Made by a program: the position numbers and the translations under genes. From an uncultured Bacteroidota bacterium (GTDB lineage: Bacteria > Bacteroidota > Bacteroidia > Bacteroidales > GWA2-32-17), in contig CAIQJL010000102.1 in NCBI GenBank assembly GCA_903872185.1, forward strand, positions 1 through 37,588: a DNA stretch of 37,588 nucleotides, given 5' to 3'. The notes beneath the pieces are model-generated. The model saw only the letters and a program-made list of their open reading frames with translations, ran no database searches and was not told the DNA's origin. This document shows, in pieces, positions 2,591 through 8,122 of the stretch; the first letter of the stretch is position 1, and every line of letters begins with the position of its first letter.

Positions 2591-4750
2591 TTAATCTTCT
2601 TCGCTTTCTTGTGCTTCGTATTCTTTAAGAAGTTTGTCTTGTAATTCTCCAGGAACCTGAGCATACTCGGCATATTTCATTGTGTAAATAGCACGACCGC
2701 TTGTAATAGAACTTAAAGAAGTTGAGTATTTATTCATTTCTGCCAAAGGAACTTTAGCTTTAATTACTTCAAAGCCTTTTTCGCTGCTCATACCTTGAAC
2801 AATTGCACGACGGGTTTGTAAATCACTCATAACATCACCCATTTTCTCACTTGGTACCCATACTTCAACATCATAAACAGGTTCCATAATTCTTGGGCCA
2901 GCATTTTTAAAAGCTTCTCTAAATGCATTTCTACCAGCAAGACGGAATGAGATTTCGTTTGAATCAACTGGGTGCATCTTTCCGTCGTAAACAGCTACGC
3001 GGATATCACGAGCATAAGAACCAGTTAATGGACCTTCTTCCATTTTTTCCATTATACCTTTTAATATAGCTGGTAAGAAACGAGCTTCAATTGATCCTCC
3101 AACAATACAATTCAAGTATACTAATTTACCACCCCAAGCTAAATCATGCTCTTCTTTTCCTCTTACAGAAATATTAATTTCTTTTGTTCCAAATTTATAT
3201 TTGGTTGGATTAGCCATTCCTTCAGTATAAGGTTCAACTACAATATGAACTTCGCCAAATTGTCCAGCACCACCTGATTGTTTTTTATGTCTGTAATCTG
3301 CCTGAGCTGGTTTAGTAATTGTTTCGCGATATGGAATTTTAGGAGATAAAAATTCTGTAGGAATTTTATAAATATTATCTAAATGCCATTTCATGATATT
3401 TAAATGATATTCGCCCTGACCGGAAATAATAATCTGTTTTAATTCTTTTGAATATTCAATCTGAATACTTGGATCTTCAACATGTAATCTGTTTAATGCT
3501 TCACCTAATTTCTCATCATCATTTTCGCTGGCGGCTTTAATTGCAGTGCGGAAGCGTGGCTCTGAAAAAGGAATAGGTTCAAATGTGAAATCATTATTTG
3601 AAGCAGATAAAGTTTGATTAAACTTTGTGTTTTTTAATTTAACTGTTGCTCCGATATCTCCGGCAACAATTTTTTCGATTTTATTTCTTGTTTTTCCAGC
3701 AACTGTTAAAAGTTGAGCTATTCTTTCTTTGCTTAATGAATTATTGTTTACTAAGTCAGTACTTTCACCTAATTCGCCTGACATTACTTTAAAATAGTTG
3801 ATTTCACCAATATGTTGCTCAATAGAAGTTTTAAATACAAAAATAGAAATTGGTCCTTTTGAATCAATTTTAACTTCTTTTCCTTCCGTTGTTTTTGGAG
3901 CAGGAACATCTGTTGGTGCTGGACCACTCATTCCAATAAATTCCATTAATCTGCCAACACCCATATTCTTTTTAGCTGATGTGCAAAAAACTGGATATAG
4001 AGAACGATTTACGATTCCAAGTTTAATTCCACGAGCAATTTCTGTTTCGTCTAAAGTGCCTGTTTCGAAGAATTTTTCCATTAATGCTTCTTCGTTTTCA
4101 GCAGCTGTTTCAATTAATTTATTACGTAGTTCTTCTGCCTGATCCATATGTTCTGCCGGTATGTCAAGCAATTCTGCTTTTCCACCATCAGCACCATATT
4201 TCAACATTTTCATTTTTAACACGTCAATAATTGCATTAAAACCACTTCCGGTTACAACAGGAAATTGTACTAATGCTGCTTTATTACCAAAGAATGCTTT
4301 TATTCCTTCAGTAGTTTTCTCAATATTTGCTTTATCGTGATCGAGTTGGTTTATTACTATAATAAGAGGTTTCTCCATTTTCTCAACATAACGCATTTGT
4401 ATTTGAGTACCAACTTCAATACTGTTTTGCGCATTTATTAATATTACAGCTGTGTCTGCAACTTTAAATGAAGAGAAAATAGCATTATTAAAATCGTCAA
4501 AGCCTGGAGTGTCTAAAATATTAATTTTTTTATCTAAATACTCTGTTTGAAGTAATGAAGAATAAATTGAACAACCATTATGATGTTCTATTTCGTAATA
4601 ATCTGAAACAGTACTTTTATTACTTATATCGCCACGTCGGCTAATAATACCACCTTCAAATAGCATAGCTTCTCCAAGTGTGGTCTTTCCTGAAGAAGAA
4701 TTACCAACAAATACAATATTCCTGATCTGCTCCGTTTGATAAACTTTCAT
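2591..4750 (-). CDS. fusA2: EF-G paralogue (EF-G2/FusA2 type) with degenerate GTPase motifs
   Basis: A 719-residue translational GTPase homologue with the full EF-G layout: G domain, domains II/III, domain IV (around GEVHIVVEPY and DGKMHPVDSNEISF) and domain V. G1 is intact (G16-N-S-S-S-G-K-T23). The switch I motif RGIT is replaced by NGCS (58-61). G3 reads DTPGFDDF (80-87), so the catalytic histidine is phenylalanine (F84). G4 is NQLD (133-136) instead of NKMD. The canonical EF-G, with DTPGHVDF and NKMD, is encoded at 6011-8122. The protein should therefore bind GTP but hydrolyse it poorly or not at all. Bacteroides is reported to carry an EF-G2 that supports translation without GTP hydrolysis during starvation and gut colonisation; equating this gene with it is inference. 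It has its own promoter and terminator and diverges from the str operon. Confidence 0.9.
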   Translation of the reverse strand: MKVYQTEQIRNIVFVGNSSSGKTTLGEAMLFEGGIISRRGDISNKSTVSDYYEIEHHNGCSIYSSLLQTEYLDKKINILDTPGFDDFNNAIFSSFKVADTAVILINAQNSIEVGTQIQMRYVEKMEKPLIIVINQLDHDKANIEKTTEGIKAFFGNKAALVQFPVVTGSGFNAIIDVLKMKMLKYGADGGKAELLDIPAEHMDQAEELRNKLIETAAENEEALMEKFFETGTLDETEIARGIKLGIVNRSLYPVFCTSAKKNMGVGRLMEFIGMSGPAPTDVPAPKTTEGKEVKIDSKGPISIFVFKTSIEQHIGEINYFKVMSGELGESTDLVNNNSLSKERIAQLLTVAGKTRNKIEKIVAGDIGATVKLKNTKFNQTLSASNNDFTFEPIPFSEPRFRTAIKAASENDDEKLGEALNRLHVEDPSIQIEYSKELKQIIISGQGEYHLNIMKWHLDNIYKIPTEFLSPKIPYRETITKPAQADYRHKKQSGGAGQFGEVHIVVEPYTEGMANPTKYKFGTKEINISVRGKEEHDLAWGGKLVYLNCIVGGSIEARFLPAILKGIMEKMEEGPLTGSYARDIRVAVYDGKMHPVDSNEISFRLAGRNAFREAFKNAGPRIMEPVYDVEVWVPSEKMGDVMSDLQTRRAIVQGMSSEKGFEVIKAKVPLAEMNKYSTSLSSITSGRAIYTMKYAEYAQVPGELQDKLLKEYEAQESEED

Positions 4751-4802
4751 TTTCTATTTAATTAAATTAATTGTTTTACGCGCATTACTTTTAAAAAGGA
4801 TA

Positions 4803-4834
4803 CAAACCTAATTTAATTTTAGAAAAAATACAAA
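4803..4834 (-). promoter_or_regulatory. Promoter for the EF-G paralogue
   Basis: On the minus strand TTTG (4834-4831) is followed after 20 bases by TAGGTTTG (4810-4803), an exact match to the Bacteroidota primary-sigma pattern TTTG-N19..21-TAnnTTTG. Transcription would begin near 4796, giving a leader of roughly 45 bases to the ATG at 4750. Confidence 0.75.
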
Positions 4835-4860
4835 AAACAGTGAAAATTAATTTTAAGGAA

Positions 4861-4913
4861 TTTCTAATCAAAATATAATAGAATTACAGTTTCTAATCAA
4901 TATATTATTAGAA
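4861..4913. repeat. Two tandem TTCTAAT dyads between the divergent promoters
   Basis: The unit TTTCTAATCAA begins at 4861 and again at 4890, 29 bases apart. The second is a clean inverted repeat, TTCTAAT (4891-4897), 9 bases, ATTAGAA (4907-4913). The first has a decayed right arm (ATAGAA). They lie just upstream of the fusA2 -33 box (about -65 to -115 from its likely start) and 130 bases or more upstream of the rpsL promoter, a position that suits activator sites for fusA2. The A/T bias makes chance dyads possible; the direct duplication argues against that. Confidence 0.45.
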
Positions 4914-5040
4914 TATTAATATTATTTTTTTTCTAGTTAAATGAAACTTAATAAGGTCATTAAAACATATTTTATAACATGTAAAATGGAGATTGAGGTA
5001 AATGTTTACACTTTTGTAGATATTTTTTCTTTGTACATCG

Positions 5041-5070
5041 TTGTTTTAAATAAATATTGTTTTACCTTTG
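5041..5070 (+). promoter_or_regulatory. Promoter of the str-S10-spc-alpha superoperon
   Basis: TTG (5041-5043), a 19-base spacer, then TACCTTTG (5063-5070): a full TAnnTTTG -7 box with a one-base-short -33 element. The expected start is around 5077, about 37 bases before the rpsL ATG at 5114. No long leader or ribosomal-protein autoregulatory structure is visible, so autogenous control by this leader is unlikely. Confidence 0.7.
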
Positions 5071-5113
5071 CAAACCATTTTGGAAAACTTTATTTAATTA
5101 AAAGTGAGTATTT

Positions 5114-5494
5114 ATGCCGACTGTAGAGCAATTGGTTAGAAAAGGCCGAAAAAAAATCGTAGAAAAAAGTAAGTCAAGAGCACTTGATTCATGCCCGCAA
5201 CGTCGTGGCGTTTGTACCCGTGTATACACAACAACACCTAAAAAGCCTAACTCTGCTATGCGCAAAGTGGCTAAAGTTCGTATTACAAACGGACAGGAAG
5301 TTATTGCTTATATACCAGGTGAAGGTCATAACTTACAAGAGCACTCAATAGTACTTATCCGTGGTGGTCGTGTAAAAGACTTACCAGGTGTACGTTATCA
5401 TATTATTCGTGGAGCTTTAGATACAGCCGGAGTTGAAGGCCGTAAACAAAGAAGATCAAAATACGGAACAAAAAGACCAAAAGTTAAAAAATAA
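5114..5494 (+). CDS. rpsL: 30S ribosomal protein S12 (uS12)
   Basis: Decoding-centre protein of the small subunit. At 126 residues it matches the family. The two streptomycin-relevant loops are [10 protein letters not shown] with Lys43 and [12 protein letters not shown] with Lys88, both the usual sensitive-type residues; Asp89 corresponds to the residue that is methylthiolated in E. coli. It is the first gene of the superoperon, 12 bases ahead of rpsG. The start region is A/T-rich with no Shine-Dalgarno sequence, as usual in this phylum. Confidence 0.98.
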
Positions 5495-6010: not shown

Positions 6011-8122
6011 ATGGCAAAAGATTTAAAATATACCAGAAACATTGGCATCATGGCTCACATTGATGCAGGTAAAACCACTACCACTGAGCGTATATTATAT
6101 TATACCGGTATTAACCATAGAATGGGTGAAGTACATGAAGGTTCTGCAACTATGGACTGGATGGTACAAGAGCAGGAGAGAGGTATAACAATTACTTCTG
6201 CAGCTACAACAACCTTTTGGAAATACCTTGATGAAGATTACAAAATAAACATTATTGATACCCCTGGACACGTTGACTTTACCGTTGAAGTAGAGCGTTC
6301 TCTTCGTGTACTTGATGGTGCAGTTGCAGTTTTTTGTGCGGTTGGTGGTGTTGAACCTCAATCGGAAACTGTGTGGCGCCAAGCTACTAAATATCATGTT
6401 CCTCGTATTGCATTTGTAAATAAAATGGATAGACCGGGAGCTGATTTTTATAGCGTAATTACACAAATACAAAAGAAATTAAAAGCAAATCCAATTCCTG
6501 TTCAAATTCCAATTGGAAATGAAGATAGCTTTAAAGGTGTTATCGACCTTATTAATAATAAAGCAATCGTTTGGAATAACGAATCATTAGGTTCAACATA
6601 TGAAACTCTTCCTGTTCCTGAAGATATGAACGAAATAGTAGAAGAGTGGAGAGAGTTTATGCTTGAAAAATTAGCTGAACATGATGATGTTATTTTAGAA
6701 AAATTCCTAAACGATAAAAGTTTAATTACTGCTGAAGAAATTTATAGCGCAGTTCGTAAGGCTACAATTAAAATGATGATTGTACCAATGTTTTGCGGAG
6801 CCGCTTTTAAAAATAAAGGAATTCAGTGTTTACTTGATGGTATTATTTCTTATTTGCCAAGTCCAATTGACATTGGAAGTGTAAATGGAATTGATCCTAA
6901 AACAGAAAAAGCAATTACTAGAAAACCTGAGAATGATGAGTCATTTTCAGCTTTAGCATTTAAAATTGCTACCGATTCTTATGTTGGTAGATTAACATAT
7001 TTAAGAGTTTATTCTGGAGTTTTAAAAGTTGGTGCAATGATTTATAACGTTCGCACTGGAAAAAAAGAAAGACTTACCAGATTATTCCAAATGCATGCAA
7101 ACAAACAAATACCAAAAGAAGAAATAGAAGCTGGTGATATTTGTGCTGCAGTGGGATTAAAAGAAGTAAAAACTGGAGATACTCTTTGTGATGATAATCA
7201 TCCAATAGTTCTTGAGACTATGATTTTTCCTGAGCCAGTTATTGGAGTAGCTGTTGAACCAGTTAGTCAGGCAGATATTGATAAGCTAGTTATTTCTCTT
7301 CAGAAACTTTCTGATGAAGACCCTACATTTACTGTAAAAATTGATGAAAATACCGGACAAACTACAATTAACGGTATGGGTGAACTTCATTTGGAAATTT
7401 TAATTGACAGATTAAAAAGAGAACATAACGTTCAAATAAATCAAGGTGTTCCAATGGTAGCTTATAAAGAAACTTTAACTACCGAAACCGAACATCACGA
7501 AATATTTAAAAAACAAACAGGTGGAAAAGGCAAATTTGCCGAAATCACTGTTAAAATTGGCCCAGCTGATAAAGGTGTATCTGGATTACAATTTATTAAC
7601 GAGCTTAAGGGAAATAATCTTCCAAAAGAATATATTTTAGCTGTAGAAAAAGGATTTAAAATGGCTATGAATAATGGCCCACTTGCAGGATATACTTTAG
7701 AGAATTTAAAAGTTGTATTAATTGATGCCTCTTTTCATCCTGTAGATTCTGATTCTGTTTCTTTTGAAATAGCAGCAAATTTATCTTATCGAAATGCTTC
7801 TATGAGTGCAAATCCAACACTTTTAGAACCAATAATGAATGTTGAAATAGTTACTCCAGAAGAATATATGGGCGATGTAATGAGCGATTTAAATCGTCGC
7901 CGCGGTCAGATTCTTGGAATGGATAACAAATTAGGAGCAAGAGTAGTAAAAGCTCAGGTTCCATTAGCTGAAGTTTTTGGATACGTAACAATTTTGCGTA
8001 CTATCACTTCTGGCAGAGCTTCTTCTTCAATGGAGTTTTTTCAATATCAGAAAATGCCATTTGAATTAGCGGCAGAAATTATAAAACGAGTTACAGGAAA
8101 GCAAATTTTCATTAATCAATAA
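6011..8122 (+). CDS. fusA: Elongation factor G (canonical translocase)
   Basis: Ribosomal translocation GTPase, 703 residues. All GTPase motifs are intact: G1 AHIDAGKTT (15-23), switch I QERGITI, G3 DTPGHVDF with the catalytic His87, and G4 NKMD (137-140). Domains II-V follow, with [16 protein letters not shown] opening domain IV and [16 protein letters not shown] near its tip. It serves as the in-window reference against which the degenerate paralogue at 2591-4750 can be judged. The stop codon is one base from the rpsJ start; tuf, which follows fusA in E. coli, is absent. Confidence 0.98.

Follow-up and report, generated by a model that had tools for sequence, protein, structure and literature searches.

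What becomes of an EF-G-like protein whose GTPase motifs have departed from the consensus when a canonical EF-G is encoded in the same stretch of DNA: is it still a translocase, does it still hydrolyse GTP, or is it a duplicate that has lost its function altogether? These questions are raised by a stretch of 37,588 nucleotides from an uncultured Bacteroidota bacterium (Bacteroidales, GWA2-32-17; GenBank assembly GCA_903872185.1, contig CAIQJL010000102.1, positions 1 to 37,588, forward strand), the whole of which is called “the window” here. A preliminary description, made by a model from the sequence alone, had proposed that one of its genes encodes an EF-G paralogue that binds GTP without hydrolysing it, i.e., the Bacteroides EF-G2 “system” in another lineage. 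As EF-G2 is reported to translocate without hydrolysis, it informs the old question of what GTP hydrolysis is good for in translocation.

The gene, its product and the altered motifs

The gene in question (2591–4750, minus strand) is an ORF with an ATG start and a product of 719 aa, identified as an EF-G2 (fusA2-type) gene by profile, PDB-sequence and fold matches. Pfam finds GTP_EFTU, EF-G_D2, EFG_III, EFG_IV and EFG_C in the protein in this order, which means that the ORF is no chance one; EFG_IV is split by Pfam into two stretches. Translation of the respective sub-ranges (all minus strand) returned every motif that the preliminary description had read from the letters: an intact G1/P-loop, GNSSSGKTTL (residues 16–25, 4676–4705), the G16 and L25 of which are listed as EFG II markers in PMC3150367; NGCS instead of RGIT in G2/switch I, with Ser61 at the Thr position (residues 58–61, 4568–4579); DTPGFDDF in G3 (residues 80–87, 4490–4513), where translation and alignment put Phe84 at the catalytic His column; and NQLD instead of NKMD in G4 (residues 134–137, 4340–4351). 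Beside the lost His lies Asp85 (codon 4496–4498). The canonical EF-G (fusA) that had been pointed out for comparison is indeed present at 6011–8122 on the plus strand (TIGR00484, 993.9 bits against a cut-off of 659.4), shows GHVDF, RGIT and NKMD, and is 32% identical to the window EF-G2 in an alignment. Phe84 falls in the column of His87 of Thermus thermophilus EF-G, where the fusA product has His.

The statement that domains II–V are intact stood as far as the presence and order of the EF-G Pfam domains are concerned, but overlooked an insertion of 28 residues in domain IV (residues 512–539, 3134–3217, minus strand), which canonical EF-G does not have and which the alignment shows to equal that of 7uvp_A in length. 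His573 of T. thermophilus EF-G domain IV is preserved as His593. Judging by the residues, the intact G1, Ser61, Asp80, Asn134 and Asp137 would fit a retained nucleotide binding.

Family membership

The NCBIfam model NF058620.1 (EFG2_Bacteroid) matches the window protein at 1205.1 bits (cut-off 1000) over positions 1–717 of its 717, whereas the actinobacterial model NF009377 reaches 466.2 bits, below its 890. Among PDB sequences, 7uvp_A matches best (E 1.3e-278, gapless across residues 1–718), and the best fold match found by Foldseek with the predicted window structure (mean pLDDT 83.8, pTM 0.73) is 8dmf (TM 0.93, 57% identity), which has the same sequence as 7uvp_A and is titled as the ribosome-bound EF-G2 of Bacteroides thetaiotaomicron. 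Among the EFG II markers of Margus et al. (PMC3150367), all six of type I (G16, L25, S61, T308, G352, K371) and five of the seven of type II are found, E220 and L563 being the deviating ones. An EF-G tree, the check that had been proposed beforehand, placed the protein inside the EF-G2 clade and not outside it: the window protein and 7uvp_A fall within one 14-row set (SH-aLRT 99), with the 9 EFG I rows lying well outside it, in an unrooted tree of 65 rows made by a quick method without bootstrap. Residues 84–85 and the insertion columns were excluded from it, half of the phylum-search rows were taken in (10/20 insertion-free, 21/42 others), and its EFG II rows all belong to the window's phylum.

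Judged by its sequence, therefore, the window gene is the orthologue of the Bacteroides fusA2 and encodes an EF-G2, and the initial guess at the family was right. The EF-G2 family itself, its structure, its phenotype and its biochemistry in Bacteroides have already been published, and Bacteroidetes EFG II proteins with an altered G2 have been known since 2011 (PMC3150367), which makes the window protein an additional member. What it does add is an extension of the family to a Bacteroidota lineage whose named relatives are, as far as is known here, metagenome assemblies only, and in which both the residue of the catalytic column and the surroundings of the gene are different.

Distribution

In the window's order, 106 of the 119 genomes sampled have an EF-G2 match above the cut-off, five have one below it (four of them in pieces) and eight have none, while a match of more than 880 bits was seen in 32 of the 198 genomes of the class sample, the window's own genome counted. 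With 111/119 genomes in the order against 32/198 in the class, EF-G2 is regular within the window's order and patchier outside, which suggests that it is widely used there and no gut speciality; the notion of “the same system in another lineage” thus survives for the family, and for the lineage only in a narrow sense. The eight genomes lacking a match (G201, G215, G241, G252, G262, G267, G283 and G287), each listed as 93–99% complete, are possible cases of EF-G2 loss.

The order sample consists of 106 of the 107 fetched or window rows, the dropped one (L159, genome G306) having an in-frame stop; the four genomes whose EF-G2 is present only as fragments at contig ends (G284, G295, G206 and G255) are left out of the rows, as are L001–L008, L094 and L126, which are window copies or other paralogues. 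An apparent middle group of seven class-search matches of about 480–504 bits was discarded, the loci fetched (L119–L125, i.e., five of those seven matches and two ranked between them, with similar unsplit matches of about 520–528 bits lying outside the set) being canonical EF-Gs with His. The window's genome also has a third EF-G outside the window (G000:C300:9429-11495, plus strand; L126:4430-6502), which carries RGIT, GHIDF and NKMD, is of the EFG I type (TIGR00484, 979.8 bits) and lies away from the str operon; of the 40 other genomes of the order searched, 14 have copies of it that are 64–75% identical.

The catalytic column, the insertion and a possible order of losses

The 215 EF-G2 rows never have His at residue 84 (Leu 74, Phe 47, Ser 38, Ala 36, Met 8, Pro 4, Tyr 3, Gly 2, Ile 2, Thr 1), nor do the 62 EFG II rows that the phylum search added (Tyr 44, Leu 7, Phe 5, Thr 5, Ala 1), whereas 56 of 56 canonical EF-Gs do; these 277 rows (215 + 62) are non-independent, L009, for example, sharing 99% identity with the window protein, and one genome may appear twice, once of these as a named record. 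As His is absent in 277/277 rows, its loss characterises the group as a whole and is no peculiarity of the window gene. Nor does a lost His prove inactivity, because the EF-G-2 of T. thermophilus, with Tyr in this column, is reported to be an active GTPase; the step from Phe84 to absent hydrolysis, as taken in the preliminary description, is accordingly insecure on its own.

Lys22 is preserved in 215/215 EF-G2 rows, which have either Ser (213) or Thr (two) as residue 61. Residue 85 is Asp in 203/215 EF-G2 rows and in 0/20 insertion-free EFG II rows, with Val in 56/56 canonical EF-Gs; the G4 Lys is retained in 20/20 insertion-free, 17/42 other phylum-search and 11/215 EF-G2 rows. Columns 505–547, which hold 43 residues in the window EF-G2 and 15 in the window's canonical EF-G, have 14 in all 20 insertion-free EFG II rows (picked by a profile match ending near residue 511), 34 in 40 of the 42 other phylum-search rows (35 and 36 in one each), and 43 in 146, 34 in 54, 59 in eight and other lengths in seven of the 215 EF-G2 rows.

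On the 65-row tree, the presence of the insertion and the presence of His require one change each, and the four insertion length classes require three; all 46 insertion-bearing rows group together (SH-aLRT 99), with the order within the insertion-free rows weakly supported (81, 84). The His being general in translational GTPases, a direction can be given to the losses even on an unrooted tree, and since the insertion-free EFG II rows are already devoid of it (17 Tyr, 2 Phe and 1 Leu; n = 20), the loss of His most simply predates the insertion. A fixed order might then be sketched, tentatively and with the odds somewhat against it: His would have gone first, mostly to Tyr, followed by a single insertion into domain IV, and then by drift of the Tyr, of the G4 Lys and of the insertion, which would have become longer, so that window-like proteins would have been silenced more than once. 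This order of losses may be new; no paper on it was found in a literature search, which covered few subscription papers.

In any case, the relatives make up an ordered series (no insertion and Tyr; a short insertion and Tyr; a short or long insertion and other residues) which would allow the contribution of the His to be separated from that of the insertion. Were the order true, living lineages at each step would be natural tests of which of the changes made a hydrolysis-free translocase out of a GTPase.

The upstream region and the question of starvation control

The EF-G2 gene points away from the neighbouring rpsL-rpsG-fusA genes, its start codon being separated by 363 bp (4751–5113) from that of the ORF at 5114–5494 (plus strand), which was used as rpsL in the neighbourhood search and which, by sequence and position, we take to be rpsL (ribosomal protein S12). 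Such a divergent rpsL is seen beside EF-G2 in 16 of the 97 assessable order-sample rows (9/106 lie too close to the end of their contig) and, among the named rows, in 57 of 73 assessable ones (7/80 too close to an end), the latter having been chosen for their similarity to the window protein.

A starvation role had been brought up for the window gene as well, and such a role has been shown in gut Bacteroides species: according to PMC6989115, fusA2 of B. thetaiotaomicron is induced under carbon limitation by BT4338 (Cur) through a 22-bp site, and this control also figures in PMC10294740 and PMC10994844. Before the window gene, the best BT4338/Cur-like site (4966–4981, at −231) has three mismatches and is equalled in 10.6% of shuffled upstream regions, and the whole window holds eight matches to the published consensus at three mismatches or fewer against 9.05 expected by chance. 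The scan does detect real Cur sites, since 12 of 135 EF-G2 upstream regions, the window's not among them, have one at two mismatches or fewer against 1.0% of shuffles (12/102 in the order sample, 11 of these at −90 to −240); B. thetaiotaomicron's own site, as printed in PMC6989115, has two mismatches to the consensus. The nearest relatives L010, L011 and L012 reach a best match with five mismatches, and L009 has the window's site. With no convincing Cur site and a divergent rpsL neighbourhood, starvation control is not to be assumed here, and control by BT4338/Cur in particular is not supported by the sequence upstream of the window EF-G2. A link between the missing site and the adjacency of rpsL was considered and rejected, as L149, L147 and L154 combine a divergent rpsL with a site of one or two mismatches.

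The promoter consensus of Bacteroidota is TTTG, 18–21 bases, TAnnTTTG; its sole exact match in the window (4803–4834, minus strand) does lie before EF-G2 and is without weight, because 2.25 such matches are expected by chance. Neither structured RNAs (at gathering thresholds) nor tRNAs were found in the window. On the other side of EF-G2, both on the minus strand, lie a polyhydroxyalkanoate depolymerase-like esterase with a type 9 secretion sorting tail (66–1217; 153 bits, cut-off 150) and an FGE-sulfatase domain protein (1378–2295), GldK-like although its 111.3 bits fall far short of the 350 required for GldK.

How EF-G2 would work on the ribosome

The explanation that we regard as highly probable is that the window gene, as a fusA2 orthologue, encodes a factor that would translocate without GTP hydrolysis. 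EF-G2 would bind the ribosome in the manner of EF-G, and its tRNA-like domains would promote translocation with no GTP hydrolysed, presumably at a lower speed and a lower cost than with the fusA product. The silencing of the GTPase would probably be layered, with contributions from the missing catalytic His, from the changes in switch I and G4, and from the domain IV insertion. The 28-residue insertion presumably matches, by its uniqueness and size, the 26-residue region unique to EF-G2 that Han et al. (EMBO J 2023) reportedly connect with the absent GTPase activity and also with ribosome release. Hydrolysis-free translocation is most likely for the window protein by analogy with B. thetaiotaomicron: translocation without GTP hydrolysis is stated for an EF-G paralog in PMC12775393, and PMC10294740 has GTP-independent translation enabled by the B. 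thetaiotaomicron EF-G2. What counts against this explanation is that the biochemistry comes from a single species with 57% identity, that two of the seven type II EFG II positions (E220 and L563) differ, and that residue 84 is Phe against Ser in 7uvp_A.

Missing motifs are, as a whole, no proof of inactivity, because T. thermophilus EF-G-2 has lost its His and is reported to possess intrinsic GTPase activity, even above that of EF-G-1 according to Margus et al. citing Connell et al. (PMC3150367). It is thus conceivable, albeit unlikely, that the window EF-G2 still hydrolyses GTP slowly or without control by the ribosome, its altered motifs tuning the activity rather than killing it: Lys22, Thr23, Asp80, Asn134 and Asp137 are preserved, the Ser61 at the Thr site is described as a working substitute by Margus et al. 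(PMC3150367), and the T. thermophilus protein, which is reported to be active, has its Tyr at the His column. The nearest tested relative, however, is the B. thetaiotaomicron EF-G2, which shares the insertion length and NQLD with the window protein and is reportedly non-hydrolysing (PMC12775393 and PMC10294740).

Quite improbable, too, is a main job in ribosome recycling, in rescue or in the holding of idle ribosomes, i.e., that of a ribosome-binding factor that does not hydrolyse GTP and is not there for translocation. EF-G does work in recycling as well (PMC6989115), and the B. thetaiotaomicron EF-G2 increases upon carbon exhaustion (PMC10294740, PMC10994844, PMC6989115), but the preserved domain IV histidine (His593 for His573) and a fold resembling whole ribosome-bound EF-Gs speak for translocation, which is also the activity reported for the B. 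thetaiotaomicron protein (PMC12775393). That the gene is a decaying duplicate without function, as several catalytic motifs off consensus and the in-frame TAG in the copy of one of the 119 genomes of the order (L159; G306:C36:10807-12948) might make one think, is very hard to reconcile with an EF-G2-type match in 111/119 of those genomes, with 719 open codons, and with Lys22 and Ser/Thr61 being kept in 215/215 rows each. A tetracycline ribosomal-protection protein, as which the molecule of 7uvp_A is named in the PDB sequence table (“Tetracycline resistance protein TetQ”), can practically be dismissed, as the title of 8dmf assigns the identical sequence to the EF-G2 of B. thetaiotaomicron and the window protein scores 279.1 bits with tet_protect (cut-off 775) and 140.4 with Tet(Q) (cut-off 1425). 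The TetQ label itself could misguide the annotation of the EF-G2 family.

Comparison with known systems

The hydrolysis-free translocase that we favour for the window gene has its closest counterpart in the EF-G2 of B. thetaiotaomicron (fusA2, BT2167; 8dmf, 7uvp), with a full-length gapless match and 57% identity (Foldseek), the same insertion length, NQLD, a Ser in switch I and a G3 without His. The two differ in residue 84 (Phe in the window EF-G2, Ser in 7uvp_A) and in switch I (NGCS against YGYS), and, unlike the B. thetaiotaomicron gene, that of the window is divergent to rpsL and has no convincing BT4338/Cur site upstream. The EFG II proteins of Margus, Remm and Tenson 2011 (PMC3150367) resemble it in the marker residues and in a G2 that is devoid of RGITI and has a Ser, although the Bacteroidetes G2 motif is given there as YGYSV, whereas that of the window EF-G2 is NGCSI.

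More distant is the T. thermophilus EF-G-2 (1wdt), which Margus et al. place in EFG II; it likewise has its G3 His replaced (by Tyr), is 28% identical (Foldseek rank 32) and reportedly has the higher intrinsic GTPase activity (PMC3150367). The EF-G2 of Mycobacterium smegmatis (9k0z) has Tyr instead of the G3 His as well, and its solved structure is titled as bound to the 70S ribosome, but its identity to the window EF-G2 is 29%. The window's own fusA product, finally, is a five-domain EF-G just as EF-G2 is, and differs from it by its His87, RGIT and NKMD and by having no insertion.
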